64,000 nt of DNA, taken from Prevotella sp. (GTDB lineage: Bacteria; Bacteroidota; Bacteroidia; Bacteroidales; Bacteroidaceae). The stretch is from the NCBI GenBank assembly GCA_017470055.1, contig JAFUFD010000088.1, forward strand, positions 62,001-126,000, written 5' to 3'. This document shows, piece by piece, positions 2,775-9,542 of this stretch (position 1 is the first letter of the stretch; each line of letters opens with the position of its first letter). A program made the position numbers and the translations under genes. Under the pieces are notes generated by a model. The model had not been told where the DNA came from, ran no database searches, and saw only the letters and a list, made by a program, of their open reading frames with translations.

Positions 2775-3296
2775 TTATTTTGCTAAATCAGCAATATGCT
2801 TTGCCTCACGGTCGGCGTTAACGGCCTCAGCACCGTGAATCGGTGTGCCGTTCAACAGATTGGCTGTCGGACAGAGTTTCTTAATGAAGCGCTCGCTGCT
2901 TCCCATACCACTTCCCTCGTTGGTACAGAAGGGAATGATGGTCTTGCCTGTGAAGTCGTAACTCTCAAGGAACGTATAGACAACCATCGGCATTGTACCC
3001 CACCAGTTAGGGTAACCAAGGATGATGGTGTCGTACTCGTCAATACTTGCCAGTGGATCCTTGACCTCAGGACGCATCTGGTCGTGCAGTTCCTGCTTAG
3101 CCTCCTCGATGCAGGTCATATACGACTTCGAATACTCATAGGTCGTATCAATCTGGAACATGTCAGCATCAGGCAGTAACTCCTTGATCTTTGCTGCCAC
3201 CACCTCCGTATTACCCAATTTCAGGTTCTTTATACTTCCGTTTACATAATTCTCTCCGCGACGAGAGTAATACGCAATCAAAACTTTCTTAGCCAT
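2775..3296 (-). CDS. Flavodoxin (cytosolic)
   Basis: 173 aa with no signal peptide. MAKKVLIAYYSRRGENYVNG gives the first strand and FMN-phosphate loop. ILGYPNWWGTMP (about residues 93-104) and FCTNEGSGMGS (about 123-133) match the flavin-contact loops seen in the lipoprotein paralogue at 2068-2715. It acts as an FMN electron carrier or quinone/aldehyde-reductase-like protein; the exact partner is unknown. It is transcribed away from the NTF2-like gene from a shared intergenic region that carries a back-to-back pair of the tandem operator-like element. Confidence 0.9.
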   Translation of the reverse strand: MAKKVLIAYYSRRGENYVNGSIKNLKLGNTEVVAAKIKELLPDADMFQIDTTYEYSKSYMTCIEEAKQELHDQMRPEVKDPLASIDEYDTIILGYPNWWGTMPMVVYTFLESYDFTGKTIIPFCTNEGSGMGSSERFIKKLCPTANLLNGTPIHGAEAVNADREAKHIADLAK

Positions 3297-3364
3297 AGTT
3301 CTTTCTCCTTAATTTATTTATATTGCAAATTTACGCCTTTTATCCCAATAGTGTGATACCAATA

Positions 3365-3392
3365 TTACGGATTCGCTTATCATTTTTACTGA
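3365..3392 (-). promoter_or_regulatory. Tandem operator-like element, copy 1 (faces the flavodoxin gene)
   Basis: Read on the minus strand: TCAGTAA at 3392-3386 and TCCGTAA at 3371-3365, starts 21 bp apart, with GATAA between them. It has the same layout as the copies at 3405-3432 and 6785-6812. A 21-bp direct repeat (two helical turns) is typical of AraC-family half-sites, so binding by the regulator at 6855-7790 is a reasonable inference. Confidence 0.6.
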
Positions 3393-3404
3393 TTTTAGCA
3401 AAAA

Positions 3405-3432
3405 TCCGTAATTTTGGTAACTCAATCCGTAA
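3405..3432 (+). promoter_or_regulatory. Tandem operator-like element, copy 2 (faces the NTF2-like gene)
   Basis: TCCGTAA at 3405-3411 and TCCGTAA at 3426-3432, exactly 21 bp apart, with GGTAA between. It sits about 30 bp upstream of the -7 box at 3464 and is oriented toward the plus-strand gene. Confidence 0.65.
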
Positions 3433-3463
3433 GATTTATACAAAAGGTTTGTGGCATTCAACG

Positions 3464-3471
3464 TACCTTTG
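3464..3471 (+). promoter_or_regulatory. Bacteroidota -7 box of the NTF2-like gene
   Basis: TACCTTTG fits the Bacteroidota consensus TAnnTTTG and lies 28 bp before the start codon, downstream of operator copy 2. Confidence 0.6.
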
Positions 3472-3499
3472 CCCTTGTAAAACTTAAAGCAATAAAGAT

Positions 3500-3934
3500 A
3501 TGGATTTCAGAATGCAAGACCGCGCAGAGTTGAAGGCATTAGTAGACTACTACGCAACAGAGAGTGACAAGAACAACCAGGACTGCTATGTGGAGATTTT
3601 CCGTCCTGATATTAAGTTGAACGTATACTTTGGTGGAAAGTTAGGGATGCAGGCAACAGAAGTACATGACATGATTCGCCAGTATAAGGCATTCGGTGCC
3701 GCTAAGGTGTCTTTCCACATGAACGGACAGCAGAATGTTGAGTTCCAAGATGATACTCATGCCACAGGTACATGCTATGCTCTTGCCACATTAGTGACAG
3801 AGGAGGATGGGAAGGACAAACTGACGGTTCATGCTGTTCGCTACTTTGATAAGTATGTGAAGATTGATGGTCGTTGGTGGATTGCCGAGCGTGAGCAATA
3901 CTTCGAGTGGAGTGCATTTCCCCCGCTGGTGTAA
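3500..3934 (+). CDS. NTF2-like / SnoaL-like domain protein
   Basis: 144 aa, a single NTF2-like alpha+beta barrel. DRAELKALVDYYATESDKNN at the N-terminus is the usual first helix, and VRYFDKYVKIDGRWWIAEREQYFEW at the C-terminus is the typical last strand pair with its aromatic cluster. Proteins of this fold bind small hydrophobic ligands and may isomerise or hydrate them; no catalytic assignment is possible here. It is the first gene to the right of the divergent operator pair and abuts the cyclophilin-like gene, so the two are probably one transcript. Confidence 0.85.
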   Translation: MDFRMQDRAELKALVDYYATESDKNNQDCYVEIFRPDIKLNVYFGGKLGMQATEVHDMIRQYKAFGAAKVSFHMNGQQNVEFQDDTHATGTCYALATLVTEEDGKDKLTVHAVRYFDKYVKIDGRWWIAEREQYFEWSAFPPLV

Positions 3935-3937
3935 GTG

Positions 3938-4375
3938 ATGGTAAAGAGATTGTTTTGCGTTATGCTGGTGCTGCTGTGTCTGACAGCGGCATCGGCACAA
4001 ACTCATAAAGTTAAGCGTATGAGACTGAAAGTAACAATCAGCGGACAGGTGTTCCACGTACAGACCGTCGATGACCCTCTGGTCAGTCAGGTGGCTGCAA
4101 TGTGTCCGATGGAACTGGAGGCCAGCCGTAGCGGGAATCATGAGTATTACAGCCGACTGCCTAAGAAAGTTGATGACAGCAAGAGCCGGAAGACTTCTGA
4201 TGCCCACAAGAATGAACTGATGTACTTCGGTGGCTGGAATTGTCTTTCGCTCTTGTTCGACGATGTGAACGTGGCTCCCTACAAGTTGGTGAAACTGGGT
4301 GACTTCGAGGAGGACGTGGCCTCGGTTTTAAGGGAATCGGCAGGGAAGATCAAGGTGAAAGTGGAGGTGGAATAA
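3938..4375 (+). CDS. Exported cyclophilin-like fold protein
   Basis: About 145 aa from the ATG at 3938 (a GTG directly before it is also possible). A signal peptide (VKRLFCVMLVLLCLTAASAQ) is followed by a small beta-barrel domain: RMRLKVTISGQVFHVQTVDDP, then a HEYYSRLP segment, then ELMYFGGWNCLSLLFDD. This matches the pattern of the cyclophilin-like family that often accompanies flavodoxins and aldo/keto reductases in gut Bacteroidota. Prolyl isomerase activity is not established for this family. It starts 3 bp after the NTF2-like stop and is the last gene of that operon. Confidence 0.75.
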   Translation: MVKRLFCVMLVLLCLTAASAQTHKVKRMRLKVTISGQVFHVQTVDDPLVSQVAAMCPMELEASRSGNHEYYSRLPKKVDDSKSRKTSDAHKNELMYFGGWNCLSLLFDDVNVAPYKLVKLGDFEEDVASVLRESAGKIKVKVEVE

Positions 4376-4471
4376 GACCCAACAGTTTCTCTGCGACATC
4401 CTCGGAAAGCAGAATACTTGAAAGGCTTTTGCCCAATCAAACCATCACTTATAGAAATACATAAAGGCATC

Positions 4472-5458
4472 TCAAATCTCCGGCAGTTCGTCAATATAAT
4501 CGCACAATGCTTCCATCAATTTCTGAAACTCTTCTGACTGAGGTATCTTTGTGATTGAACTGATTTTCTTTTGGATGTCTTGGAGAGAATTGGAATCTGT
4601 GTGAGCCTTCAAGAACAAACGCCAGTTGTTGGCAGGAATGCCAAGAATATCTGCAAGAAGAGTTTCCTCGACGAAATCAGACATGATGCCAGTTCTGGCC
4701 AATCGACCGAAGTTATTTCCTCCATCGTCTACTGGTTTATAGTTTGTCTTGTCGCGAGCATTCTCCATATAAGGACGTACACCTGCTGGAACATCCAGAC
4801 CACGTTGTTTCACCGTCTTCGGGTAATCTGTCTGCCGCTCATATATCCAATATCGCTTTGTAGCCTCAGCGGCGGCTTTAGCAGAATAGACCCATGGAGT
4901 GGCTAGTACGGGATGACCGCAGACGGCATCACTGAGATACCAGGGAATGATGCAAAGCAGGTCTGCTGGGTCGCAAGCCTCGGATGCTGTGCGATAGCGG
5001 AATGAAGGTTCACCTTCTTTTGACAAGATAAACCAACTTTTCAACTCTATGCCAAGAATGATGTCATGGTTGTCGCCCTTTCTGACAAGACGAACATCTG
5101 GGAATGATTCGTTTGAACGGATGAAATGATACTCACTCCAACTGCCATCGTCCCAGAGGTGCCGATGAGCATTGAGGAACATCACAACTTTATTCTCAAT
5201 CATCGAACCAAGCAGTGTGTTCAGACTGAATAAATCTGTTGCCAGAATTCCTGAGTAACTGTTTTCGATAGAGCATTCTGCAGGGAGTGACGGAAATACA
5301 ATATTGCGAAGTGCCTCTATCAGATTTGCTCTATTGTCATTACCTCTTAGCGAGTAATCCGATTCTACGAAAGGTGGAAGTGAGTCGATGCTTGTAAATG
5401 CAACCCCTTTTTGGGCTTCCGCCAGCGTTGCGATATAAGATTGTTTATTTGTTTTCAT
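4472..5458 (-). CDS. Type II restriction endonuclease, PD-(D/E)XK type (predicted)
   Basis: 328 aa. A PD-(D/E)XK nuclease core is visible: PDVRLV with D121, then IELKSW with E138 and K140, about 17 residues later. The start codon overlaps the stop of the methyltransferase gene (ATGA), the usual arrangement of a restriction-modification pair; methyltransferase-first order would let protection be made first. I do not recognise the recognition sequence. The gene pair sits between the AraC regulator and the genes it probably controls, which suggests insertion as a cassette. A nuclease assignment rests on the motif and the partner, not on a recognised family. Confidence 0.75.
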   Translation of the reverse strand: MKTNKQSYIATLAEAQKGVAFTSIDSLPPFVESDYSLRGNDNRANLIEALRNIVFPSLPAECSIENSYSGILATDLFSLNTLLGSMIENKVVMFLNAHRHLWDDGSWSEYHFIRSNESFPDVRLVRKGDNHDIILGIELKSWFILSKEGEPSFRYRTASEACDPADLLCIIPWYLSDAVCGHPVLATPWVYSAKAAAEATKRYWIYERQTDYPKTVKQRGLDVPAGVRPYMENARDKTNYKPVDDGGNNFGRLARTGIMSDFVEETLLADILGIPANNWRLFLKAHTDSNSLQDIQKKISSITKIPQSEEFQKLMEALCDYIDELPEI

Positions 5459-6459
5459 ACGGCAATAAGTTCTGTTTCTGATAATCTGCTTACAGCATTT
5501 CTAAACGTACTCTCTGTAATCTCCGCAGAGTAGCACGAACGGCCAAGCCTGCGGCAACACCAAGCCGTTGTCGCCAGTCCAGCAAATGGATCCCAGACGA
5601 CATCTCCTTCATCAGATGATGTGCGGATGATATAATCGATGATGGAAACGGGCTTCTGATTGTAGTGTAATGCTTTATGACTTAGACTATCTTTTAGGCG
5701 CTCCTTGCTGTGCAACGCTGGCTGACTCCATACGTTAGTGTAACCGTGAATATGATTCCATTTGGCACGCATTCCGTCCCATAGGGCTTCTGACATCTGC
5801 TTACCACCGACCGTGAAATATGGGCGTCCAAAGGAATTGCCATATTTGTTGGCATAGTCGGCAATCATTTTCATTGCGTTGGAAGGTGGGAAATACCACA
5901 AGTCGTCAGGAGTAAAATACTTTCTTGTGGCGGCATTCTTAACGCCACAGGCCTCATTAGTTTTACTAAAAGGCAACCCTGTCCGTTTCCACTCGCTCCG
6001 CAGCCACTCCTGCAATCCCAACATCTTTCCGTCCTGACATTCTATCATTACACGCTTAGTGTATCTCACGCACACTTCTGTCACGATAGGAGCCTGTCGG
6101 ATAGTTTTTGAGTTCACATTTCCAGCCACATGGCCTATACCTTTGTCCCAAACAAAAGTCTGCTCATAGTCCCAGCCATTGACCTCAAGATAGTGGTGCA
6201 TCCTTGCCCAACCAAGTTCGGTTCCCCAGAACCAAAGCGTTGTATCGGGCTTTGCGTATTTCGACCACTCGGCGATGTGAGGCGCATAAACTTCAGGAAG
6301 CAACTTCGTGTCTTTAGGGTCACCAGGAAAGCCATTGATACCATAAGGACCATCCACAAAAATCACAGTCGGGGCAGCCCATCGACTATAACAATCCAGC
6401 GAGTTCTTATTTTCAAGAACTATTCTGCTGTTTCTGGTATATTGGACGAATGTATCCAT
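5455..6459 (-). CDS. DNA methyltransferase, beta class (N6-adenine or N4-cytosine)
   Basis: 334 aa. Motif IV is DGPYG (residues 36-40), a variant of (D/N/S)PPY with Gly in place of the first Pro. NQKP lies near the C-terminus, followed by the AdoMet-binding motif I, WDPFAGLATTAW, from about residue 289. Motif IV before motif I is the order of beta-class amino-methyltransferases. The middle segment (about 100-240) would carry target recognition. The product methylates the sequence cut by the coupled endonuclease downstream. The DGPY variant is unusual and leaves the N4/N6 question open. Confidence 0.85.
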   Translation of the reverse strand: MDTFVQYTRNSRIVLENKNSLDCYSRWAAPTVIFVDGPYGINGFPGDPKDTKLLPEVYAPHIAEWSKYAKPDTTLWFWGTELGWARMHHYLEVNGWDYEQTFVWDKGIGHVAGNVNSKTIRQAPIVTEVCVRYTKRVMIECQDGKMLGLQEWLRSEWKRTGLPFSKTNEACGVKNAATRKYFTPDDLWYFPPSNAMKMIADYANKYGNSFGRPYFTVGGKQMSEALWDGMRAKWNHIHGYTNVWSQPALHSKERLKDSLSHKALHYNQKPVSIIDYIIRTSSDEGDVVWDPFAGLATTAWCCRRLGRSCYSAEITESTFRNAVSRLSETELIAV

Positions 6460-6784
6460 GTCATAAAGTGCTATATTGTTATATGCTCTCTTACGTCTCT
6501 CTGGTACAAAAGTACAAAAATTATTCCTTATTTATATATAACAAGGTAGAATTTAAATCTATTTTAACCCTTTCGGACTTAAAACAATTGTGGCGAAGAA
6601 CGAACAGGAACATGGTGGCTCTACAGAAAGAACGGTTGAAACTGGGAGATAGGTGCCTGCAAACAGGGAGAAAGGTACGTTTAAACTCAGCATCATCGAC
6701 TTCTTATCTTGGAGCATCCTCCCTTTTATATAGGAGCGGTCGGTCGAAACCAAGTTGTATTCCTTTGAGACTTCTTGCTGCAAT
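6460..6784. other. Intergenic region between the methyltransferase and araC, possible gene remnant
   Basis: No complete gene is seen. The first 100 bases are A/T-rich and should hold the methyltransferase promoter. On the plus strand, 6575-6733 reads as a protein-like stretch (ending IIDFLSWSILPFI) interrupted by one TAG at 6650-6652, so it could be a decayed small gene. I do not recognise its family. Confidence 0.3.
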
Positions 6785-6812
6785 TCCGTAAAAATGGTAA
6801 GCAAATCTGTAA
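6785..6812 (+). promoter_or_regulatory. Tandem operator-like element, copy 3 (araC promoter)
   Basis: TCCGTAA at 6785-6791 and TCTGTAA at 6806-6812, again 21 bp apart, with GGTAA in between, followed by ATTTATACA as at copy 2. This points to autoregulation of the AraC-type gene. Confidence 0.6.
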
Positions 6813-6842
6813 TATTTATACACGCTTCTCGAAAAATCTTCG

Positions 6843-6850
6843 TACCTTTG
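6843..6850 (+). promoter_or_regulatory. -7 box of the AraC-type gene
   Basis: TACCTTTG lies only 4 bp before the ATG at 6855, so the transcript is expected to be leaderless or nearly so if this box is used. Confidence 0.5.
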
Positions 6851-6854
6851 CATC

Positions 6855-7790
6855 ATGACACATTTCGAGACGATACAGGAGTTTAATGAGATGCTGGGTG
6901 TAGAGACCCTGCATCCGATGGTGAGTGTGGTGAACTTGGGACTTGCAAAGCCTATGAGGCACATGCGGCATACGAATGGCTTTTACTCGGTGATGCTGAA
7001 AGACGAGAAGTTCTGCGATATTGTCTATGGTCGTTCACGTTATGACTACGACAAGGGGTCTGTGGTATCTACGGCACCAGGACAGGTAGTAGGCATAGAG
7101 CCGACAAATGAGGCATTAGGCAAGGATGCCAAGGAATTGTTCCAACCAGTCGGATGGGGACTGTTCTTCGCCCCGGAGTTAATCCACGGCACGTCACTTG
7201 CCCGCAATCTGAAGGAGTATACCTTTTTCGAATATCAGGCTAACGAGGCACTGCATCTGTCGGAGCGTGAGCGTGAGGTGTTTCTGCATTGTCTGGATGA
7301 GATACAGACAGAGTTAGAGCATGGCATTGACCGCCTGACACGTCGCCTTATCGTGTCGAACATTGAGATATTACTTGACCACTTATTGCGTTTCTACGAG
7401 CGTCAGTTCATTACTCGCGAGTTCACCAACAGTGACCTGCTCTCTCGCTTTGAACAACTGCTGAGACACTACTTTGAGGGTAATAACGCAATGAGGAACG
7501 GTTTGCCTACTGTCCGTTACTGTGCCTCGGAACTATGTCTGTCACCTAATTACTTTGGTGACCTTATTCGTAAAGAGACAGGAAAGACCGCACAGGAGCA
7601 TATCAAACTGCATACCCTCGATGCTATCAAGCGTGAACTTGTTGACCCGCAGAAGACGATTACCGATGTTGCCTATGATCTTGGCTTCCAGTATCCTCAG
7701 CACCTGAGCCGTTTCTTCAAGAAGGAGATGGGGATGTCGCCAGCAGAGTATCGCCAGCGGCAATTGCTGGGAGAGATGGCTCAAGCATAG
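6855..7790 (+). CDS. AraC family transcriptional regulator (YqhC-like)
   Basis: 311 aa. An N-terminal cupin-like effector domain (about residues 20-170; FYSVMLKD, GSVVSTAPGQVVGI) is followed by two helix-turn-helix motifs (about 205-305): VRYCASELCLSPNYFGDLIRK and ITDVAYDLGFQYPQHLSRFF, with the family signature KKEMGMSPAEYRQ. In E. coli the related YqhC activates an aldehyde reductase gene. The same 28-bp tandem element stands in its own promoter and between the flavodoxin and NTF2-like genes, so it probably controls the left-end redox module and itself. The effector is unknown. Confidence 0.9.
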   Translation: MTHFETIQEFNEMLGVETLHPMVSVVNLGLAKPMRHMRHTNGFYSVMLKDEKFCDIVYGRSRYDYDKGSVVSTAPGQVVGIEPTNEALGKDAKELFQPVGWGLFFAPELIHGTSLARNLKEYTFFEYQANEALHLSEREREVFLHCLDEIQTELEHGIDRLTRRLIVSNIEILLDHLLRFYERQFITREFTNSDLLSRFEQLLRHYFEGNNAMRNGLPTVRYCASELCLSPNYFGDLIRKETGKTAQEHIKLHTLDAIKRELVDPQKTITDVAYDLGFQYPQHLSRFFKKEMGMSPAEYRQRQLLGEMAQA

Positions 7791-7802: not shown

Positions 7803-9542
7803 CTAAGTTTTCTGATAGACTGTTCCCTCGTCATTCATCAAAAGGATGGTGAGGTTGCCGTCGGGGAGGAGAGGCTTGCAGTGTTGGTAGCAATGGGAGA
7901 TAATCGTACCTGCAAAGGCTTGCAGGAAATCGGCAGGAATCTGCTGCCACAGTTCTCTGGCGAGGGTGAGGTTGGTGAGGTCGATTGGGCAGCCTGCTTC
8001 ATCGAGCATCGTGGCGATAAATGTTTTGTCCATCACAGTCTTCTTGCTATGTGTATCCAGGTTTCCTGCCGCTAACTTCACTGCCTTGCCAAGCATCACC
8101 CCCAAGGTGACGTTAGGGAACTGGAGTTCATGTGCTATCTTCAACGTCTCACCGATATAGTTGCCATACTCCACGAAAGCCTGTGTGGGCAGGGTGGGAT
8201 AGTGTGCCTTGACGAAACGCTCACTCTTCGCTCCGCTATTGATGACAACACGGTTGCTGCCGCTTGCCTTTGCCACCTCCATACACTTTCGGATGCTCTG
8301 AATGAACGCTTCCTCGGAGAAAGGCTTGACGATACCAGATACCCCGATGATAGAGATGCCGCCCTCAATACCCAAGCGGGGATTGAACGTACGACGGGCA
8401 ATCTCCTCACCTTGTGGCACAGAAATAGTAATGTTCAATGGCGAATGGTCAATGTTCAATGCCTCTATGTTCTGACGAATCATCTCACGAGGGGCTTTAT
8501 TGATAGCAGGCTCGCCAGGGGGATAGTCGAAGCCGGGGAGTGTGAAACGACCTACGCCCTCACCACCTTCGATGGTGAACGTGTCAGAGAGGATTACATT
8601 TGCCCGTATCTCCAGTCCATTCGTCACATCAGGGTCGTCACCAGCCTCTTTGAAGACGGAGACATACCCATCCCCATAGGTTACAGGAACAGGAATCGTC
8701 TCACCATCAGGCAGGATGACGGGTACCTCTGCGGGTGTCTCGTTTTTCAGCAGTCTGAGTGTAGCACCAACCGCTGAGGCAGTGGCGCAAGTACCTGTCG
8801 TCAGTCCACTATGCAGGGGATAGAATTCAGGTAATAGTCGCTCTACCATCCGTCGCAGTCCATGCGGACCGTTGACTGTCTGAAAGGCGGCAGGGGTGGC
8901 AGGACGTTTTAATACGAGGATGCGCATTCCCTTTGCTTTTGCAGCATCCACCTTTTCTTGAAATCCTCCCGTTAAACCACTTTCTTTCAATAGGATAGTG
9001 TCAGCATTGATGTCTATCACCTTGCTATCCTCATAGAATAATAGTTGGTCGTCAGTAGCACCCTGTGCCTTGGCAAGACGGATAGATGACTCCCGAGGCA
9101 GGATGCGGTAATAGACCTTGATGCCCTTTGCCTCTAACGGTTTCAGTTTCGCAATCGACTGTACTCCTGTCGTGGCAAGAAGGGTATGGGTGTCTGTAGG
9201 AATTTGTGTGTAGTCATCTATCCACGTCAGACTTACGTCCCTTTTAGGAAAGATGCGCTCAAAGCGGATGGCAGGAATCTGCAACTTCATCGCCACTTCC
9301 GCCACGGTATCGTGTAATACTTGGGCGAAAGGATGGGCGGCATCAATCAATAATTGAATGTGATGCTCTTGGCAGAACGTAAGCATTGCCTTCTGGTCTA
9401 AGGCACCATGTAGTCGTATGCCATGATGCAGTGCCACCTCCTGCTCCTCCGTCTTGGTAGAGTAGTAGTAGGTGTTTCCTGCCTCCTCCAGCACCTCCAC
9501 AGCCTTACGTCCTTCCGTTGTTCCTCCAAATACCAGTATCAT
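7803..9542 (-). CDS. cbiJD: Fused cobalt-precorrin-6A reductase and cobalt-precorrin-5B C1-methyltransferase (CbiJ-CbiD)
   Basis: 579 aa. Residues 1 to about 235 are CbiJ/CobK (MILVFGGTTEGRKAVEVL, a Rossmann start; IDAAHPFAQ; GFQEKVDAAKAKG), which reduces precorrin-6A with NAD(P)H. From about 240 on is CbiD (LHSGLTTGTCATASAVGA; VINSGAKSERF; LGVMLGKAVKLA), which methylates C1 with AdoMet after ring contraction. It is the last gene of the minus-strand cobalamin operon, separated from cbiG-cobM by 223 bp that carry a dispersed repeat. A 7-bp-period array sits in frame near residue 365 (NIEALNIDHSPLN). An exact fusion of two full domains supports function. Confidence 0.93.
   Translation of the reverse strand: MILVFGGTTEGRKAVEVLEEAGNTYYYSTKTEEQEVALHHGIRLHGALDQKAMLTFCQEHHIQLLIDAAHPFAQVLHDTVAEVAMKLQIPAIRFERIFPKRDVSLTWIDDYTQIPTDTHTLLATTGVQSIAKLKPLEAKGIKVYYRILPRESSIRLAKAQGATDDQLLFYEDSKVIDINADTILLKESGLTGGFQEKVDAAKAKGMRILVLKRPATPAAFQTVNGPHGLRRMVERLLPEFYPLHSGLTTGTCATASAVGATLRLLKNETPAEVPVILPDGETIPVPVTYGDGYVSVFKEAGDDPDVTNGLEIRANVILSDTFTIEGGEGVGRFTLPGFDYPPGEPAINKAPREMIRQNIEALNIDHSPLNITISVPQGEEIARRTFNPRLGIEGGISIIGVSGIVKPFSEEAFIQSIRKCMEVAKASGSNRVVINSGAKSERFVKAHYPTLPTQAFVEYGNYIGETLKIAHELQFPNVTLGVMLGKAVKLAAGNLDTHSKKTVMDKTFIATMLDEAGCPIDLTNLTLARELWQQIPADFLQAFAGTIISHCYQHCKPLLPDGNLTILLMNDEGTVYQKT
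8428..8462. repeat. Degenerate 7-bp-period array inside cbiD
   Basis: Five units: GTAATGT, TCAATGG, CGAATGG, TCAATGT, TCAATGC. The consensus TCAATGG is the complement of the CCATTGA unit seen in cobL at 12535. The array stays open in the coding frame. Confidence 0.6.

Follow-up and report, generated by a model that had tools for sequence, protein, structure and literature searches.

A 64,000-nucleotide stretch of a Prevotella sp. genome (assembly GCA_017470055.1, contig JAFUFD010000088.1, positions 62,001 to 126,000; C8:62001-126000 in the contig numbering used below), referred to as the window at its full length, carries three copies of a tandem DNA element that is predicted to be the operator of a nearby AraC-family regulator, encoded by araC1 (6855-7790, +). 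The first two copies lie between a flavodoxin (Flavodoxin_4) gene (2775-3296, -) and a SnoaL_4/NTF2-like gene (3500-3934, +), which forms a predicted operon with a Cyclophil_like2 gene (3935-4375, +). Candidate operator O1 (3357-3392, -; half-sites TCAGTAA-N4-GATA and TCCGTAA-N4-GGTA, 21 bp apart) faces the flavodoxin gene, its predicted target, O2 (3405-3440, +; TCCGTAA-N4-GGTA and TCCGTAA-N4-TATA) faces the SnoaL/cyclophilin-like operon, again as predicted target, and O3 (6785-6820, +; TCCGTAA-N4-GGTA and TCTGTAA-N4-TATA) lies in the araC1 promoter. A -7 box follows each copy, namely TAAATTTG in the flavodoxin promoter (3326-3333, -), 31 nt past the 28-bp core of O1, TACCTTTG at 3464-3471 (+), 31 nt past the core of O2, and TACCTTTG again before araC1 (6843-6850, +), 30 nt past the core of O3. 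An earlier sequence-only reading had described the element as TCNGTAA-N4-GRTAA-N5-TCNGTAA at 3365-3392 (-), 3405-3432 (+), and 6785-6812 (+); all three matches were recovered, with no further one in the 64 kb and none in 100 dinucleotide shuffles. The 28-bp limit of that pattern proved too short, as the second half-site has a second box of its own and the element spans about 36 bp. All three window copies fit the 36-bp form with 0 mismatches, and at up to two mismatches no match was found beyond them.

The cluster begins upstream of the window. In the genome (3.39 Mb, 95.25% complete, 6.84% contamination), exact TCNGTAA-N14-TCNGTAA occurs in six places: the three window copies, C8:60760 (1.2 kb before the window), C8:56994 (5.0 kb before it), and one position on contig C121, where the pair is part of a 21-bp tandem repeat within a coding 354-aa open frame. 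The cluster thus comprises five exact copies inside 12 kb. Allowing one mismatch gave 36 matches and the backward pattern 37, and because this is no enrichment, weight was given only to exact or well-placed copies. A 67-base pattern that joins parts of both second boxes to the -7 box at fixed spacing found, at up to three mismatches, four genomic matches, every one of them within this cluster, and its backward control found none; the araC1 copy falls outside this pattern because its spacer is one base shorter. The copy at C8:60760 faces a short-chain dehydrogenase (SDR) gene heading a tight run that enters the window with a cupin/carboxymuconolactone decarboxylase (CMD)-like gene (its part inside the window at 5-868, +), an iron-containing alcohol dehydrogenase (Fe-ADH) gene (890-2053, +; 40% identity to Escherichia coli YqhD over 359 aligned positions), and a second Flavodoxin_4 gene (2068-2715, +; a lipoprotein-like start by eye). 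The copy at C8:56994 faces a second AraC gene, araC2 (C8:57065), behind which lie genes for a cyclophilin-like protein and an alpha/beta hydrolase. Judging by their spacing, these runs are probably operons. The regulon first proposed, with flavodoxin, SnoaL/NTF2-like-cyclophilin-like, and araC members, is supported by comparison but was drawn too small, since the predicted SDR-CMD-FeADH-flavodoxin operon also has a copy.

Each half-site reads TCnGTAA-N4-(G)nTA, and two half-sites are set as a direct repeat 21 bp apart. In a profile of 89 site-bearing AraC genes, the element is TCnGTAA, N4, GGTA, N6, TCCGTAA, N4, and a looser (T/G)nTA, with boxes at offsets 0-6 and 11-14 that are repeated at 21-27 and, more loosely, at 32-35. 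The boxes of one half-site are about one DNA turn apart and the half-sites two turns; a two-box half-site of this kind in direct repeat is the form of an AraC/XylS site. AraC itself binds directly repeated two-box half-sites, with a 21-bp period and adjoining the core promoter, at araI1-araI2 of araBAD, an arrangement shared with the present element despite different box sequences.

The position of the element relative to the promoter is nearly constant. TAnnTTTG, which PMC4747536 gives as the Bacteroides -7 consensus, stands behind all five cluster copies, at spacers of 31, 31, 31, 31, and, for araC1, 30. The fetched stretches described below and the home region together hold 84 distinct sites with a -7 box in range, 82 of them with a spacer of 31, and none of these 82 site promoters has TTTG where the -33 element normally lies (gap 18-21), compared with 19 counts in 123 background promoters. 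An activator site at a fixed distance from the -7/-10 box, in the place of the -33/-35 box, is the layout of a class II promoter, and it is seen here, more weakly outside Bacteroidales. When the 82 spacer-31 sites are aligned, TTTG occurs 12 bases before the -7 box (offset 43-46) in 15, compared with 7 of 123 background promoters.

Conservation was assessed by scanning 299 genomes of the genus and 247 of the order (own genome included in each) for exact pairs with TAnnTTTG 26-36 bases behind them. Matches were found in 66/299 genus genomes, with a backward control of 1/299, and the spacers of the 114 matches (own five included) are N31 in 111, N30 in 2, and N32 in 1. In the order, 19/247 genomes have matches (backward control 3/247), the 28 outside the own genome comprising 21 with N31, five with N30, and one each with N29 and N32. 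Sixty stretches were fetched for part of the genus matches, then one from genome G197 (G197:C2) and seven more from the order. In another genus genome (G202, locus L120), copies at the araC, flavodoxin, and SDR genes recur around an AraC protein 97% identical to AraC1. The fetched G197 stretch holds araC1 only as an N-terminal remnant (L283:2208-2561; 94 aa aligned, 88% identity), beside a SnoaL gene, and retains operators and several targets despite this.

The link between the element and AraC genes is seen where genes were picked by protein similarity rather than by the site, with the region from -350 to +20 scanned in the named genomes. Named relatives, the best 80 of 584 confirmed, show 48-93% identity and mostly belong to Bacteroidales, with some from Mucilaginibacter, Larkinella, Spirosoma, Segetibacter, and others. 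Conservation at orthologous promoters, the check suggested with the sequence-only reading, was borne out: among 94 AraC genes of named genomes, 26 have an exact site and 49 a lax one (one mismatch, or two plus a -7 box), compared with 0 exact and 0-2 lax at the control distances of 19, 20, 22, and 23. Genus AraC genes found by protein gave 20/75 lax and 2/75 exact (controls 0-1 and 0-1), AraC genes in stretches anchored on the site gave 17/24 and 16/24, and both AraC genes of the own genome have sites (2/2). With 49/94 in named genomes and near-zero controls, the split by origin shows that the link does not depend on having chosen genes by the site. In the 1.39 Mb of these best 80 of 584 named loci, 39 TCnGTAA pairs are spaced by 21, and any other spacing between 8 and 60 accounts for 0-4. 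A first pool of 162 AraC genes gave 79 lax and 46 exact sites, compared with 0-5 lax and 0 exact at ten other distances and 0 and 0 for the reversed pattern; a larger pool of 200 distinct AraC proteins, of which 195 had 200 nt or more of upstream sequence, gave 88 and 46, compared with 1-3 lax and 0-1 exact at four control distances. Starting instead from genus sites, an AraC homologue lies in the fetched stretch for 32/67, 14 of these within 110 bp.

The AraC1 protein (311 aa) ends in a double helix-turn-helix (HTH) domain, the C-terminal hallmark of the AraC/XylS family, with Pfam matches to HTH_18 (2.7e-21, residues 224-302) and HTH_AraC (9.8e-14, residues 267-301), and its profile matches the AraC, MarA, SoxS, and Rob chains in the PDB; its N-terminal domain had no match in Pfam. 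The ATGs of araC1 (window 6843-6857) and araC2 (L046:14554-14568) come only 4 nt past the TTTG of the -7 box, so both transcripts would be leaderless if these ATGs are used; the 97% identical orthologue in G202 has a further 15 nt.

Given these features, each element is very probably an operator bound by an AraC-type regulator as a dimer. The two HTH motifs of each monomer would read two boxes one turn apart, TCnGTAA and then GnTA, and the 21-bp direct repeat of half-sites would fix the dimer immediately upstream of the -7 box, where a -33 box would otherwise be, so placed as to activate RNA polymerase in the manner of a class II activator. We infer from the sequence that the araC1 product is the most likely binder of O1-O3 and of C8:60760, and that it activates rather than represses, switching on the flavodoxin gene, the SnoaL/cyclophilin-like operon, the SDR-CMD-FeADH-flavodoxin operon, and araC1 itself, while araC2 would have an operator of its own.

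It should be noted that several observations weigh against this account. No site is recognisable by the lax rule in 45/94 named, 55/75 genus, and 7/24 site-anchored AraC genes; only 2/75 genus genes are exact, and control distance 19 also yields one exact match; and the pools of 162 and 195 include stretches fetched for their site, which inflates their counts. Among the 39 exact pairs in the best 80 of 584 named loci, TAnnTTTG follows at offset 31-33 in only 23, and the -7 box is missing from most exact sites found outside Bacteroidales (for example, L191, L195, L202, and L221). The spacer is looser in the order than in the genus, and the backward control matched in 3/247 order genomes. For 35/67 genus sites no AraC homologue lies in the fetched stretch, some stretches being short, and among the 32 linked homologues one lies at a distance of 12.4 kb and two are matched at 23% over 174 residues. 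Of the 299 genus genomes, 66 have the site, 80 a close homologue, and 30 both, a moderate association (odds ratio 3.05, p 2.3e-4); distant paralogues (35-40% identity) also carry the site, and many relatives of about 50% identity lack one.

The two paralogues raise the question of which protein serves which copy. AraC1 and AraC2 are 44% identical, and if the site were generic to the AraC group, both of them, and others, would bind all five copies, with cross-talk and no dedicated regulator. As expected of a generic site, box 1 and the first recognition helix vary little between the two paralogues or within the site-bearing family. However, the second recognition helix differs (YPQHLSRFF in AraC1, SVSHFTRLF in AraC2), and box 2 differs with it, GGTAA or GATAA giving way to GCAAA: the GCAAA second box is found in 3/89 site-bearing genes, exactly the three araC2-type genes, which have a different second recognition helix in common, and in 0/86 of the others. 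It is most likely, then, that araC2 uses its own variant operator with a GCAAA second box, and the pattern fits an assignment of box 1 to HTH1 and of box 2 to HTH2, made by analogy with AraC and MarA. Counting against the paralogue pairing, the three proteins are 84-100% alike, and the change of box is a single evolutionary event. A generic site is less likely than not.

Repression from these sites rather than activation is improbable. A repressor would be in keeping with the araC promoter being a predicted target and with the frequent autorepression in the AraC family, yet the near-fixed position upstream of the -7 box and the lost -33 TTTG are the geometry of an activator-dependent promoter, and a constant spacer would be no requirement for repression. 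The same near-fixed spacing could point to an extended promoter element of an alternative sigma factor. This explanation is very hard to sustain, as the -7 box does not depart from the usual Bacteroides form, the element recurs at AraC gene control regions across many named genomes of Bacteroidota, and the predictions for AraC regulators in PMC3870299 have this form, two-box half-sites directly repeated every 21 bp. That the repeats are functionless, arising by chance or by copying, has only the possible duplication of one control region within the cluster to speak for it and is practically negligible given 0 matches in 100 shuffles and the exact sites that accompany AraC proteins of as little as 48% identity in named genomes.

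Turning to what an AraC-type operator would govern, 94 distinct sites with a -7 box yielded 93 mechanical first-gene calls, from which eight short ones (282-492 bp) were removed by hand, a few others of that size being retained, and 85 were scanned. The leading Pfam families are aldo/keto reductase (20), cupin (10), Flavodoxin_4 (9), short-chain dehydrogenase (8), and CMD (8), followed by AraC (6), ABM (6), S15-type hydrolase (6), Amidohydro_2 (5), FMN reductase (4), and Fe-ADH (3). By its gene content, the regulon looks like a defence against reactive carbonyls or xenobiotics, and the signal may be an aldehyde or electrophile. Other genes also lie around araC1. A probable type II restriction-modification pair (window 4472-6459, -; REase_II weak at 2.7e-4, MTase_II clear at 1.6e-19) separates the cyclophilin-like gene from araC1; in G202 (L120), araC1 is directly divergent from the flavodoxin gene, and no restriction-modification genes were found between them. 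A fused CbiJ-CbiD cobalamin synthesis protein (window 7803-9542, -) adjoins araC1 on the other side.

Among known systems, the AraC-type rhamnose regulators of Bacteroides, for which direct repeats with a 21-bp period were predicted earlier, are alike in period and regulator type (PMC3870299). In that paper, those regulons serve rhamnose use and are said to have unique motifs, whereas box 1, TCnGTAA, is common to many regulators beside reductases, flavodoxins, and hydrolases. Direct repeats are also predicted for hybrid two-component system (HTCS) regulators with an AraC-type domain, where half-site plus spacer comes to 21 bp in two of the cases presented (16 + 5 and 12 + 9) and to 14 + 6 in a third (PMC3878776). 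As described there, HTCS proteins sense glycans and combine a periplasmic sensor with kinase and receiver domains; AraC1, with 311 aa and only HTH families in Pfam, does not belong to them. There is also a likeness in gene content to E. coli YqhC-YqhD-DkgA, in which, according to PMC5297802, the YqhC-YqhD pair answers glyoxal and furfural: there too an AraC-family activator lies beside a YqhD-like alcohol dehydrogenase, and aldo/keto reductases are the commonest first genes behind the present site. AraC1 was rejected as a YqhC orthologue, the BLASTP match of note being confined to the DNA-binding domain (22% over 90 positions); the E. coli yqhC-yqhD intergenic region, inspected by eye, has no TCnGTAA repeat, and a pattern in YqhC sites is mentioned in the main text of PMC8464067 and placed in its supplement. 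A search of the open-licence literature for this motif or regulon found no description.

Since repeats of 21-bp period had already been predicted for Bacteroides AraC regulators, the kind of control is known and this regulon is a further case: the predicted switch is real but of an ordinary kind, recurring beside many related Bacteroidota regulators at a near-fixed promoter distance. More tentatively, it can be speculated that a Bacteroidota AraC subfamily combines an almost constant box, TCnGTAA, read through HTH1 with a switchable box read through HTH2, at a nearly fixed 31 bases from the -7 box, that duplication plus a change of the second helix may yield insulated operators, as with araC1 and araC2, and that these regulons may be the Bacteroidota counterpart of a YqhC-type aldehyde/electrophile defence. 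The natural series of paralogues and operators is suited to testing how each HTH motif of an AraC protein picks its box. What is gained for an AraC group of many Bacteroidota is the prediction of its operator, its promoter geometry, and its regulon, in a phylum where the regulons of the compared papers serve sugar use.

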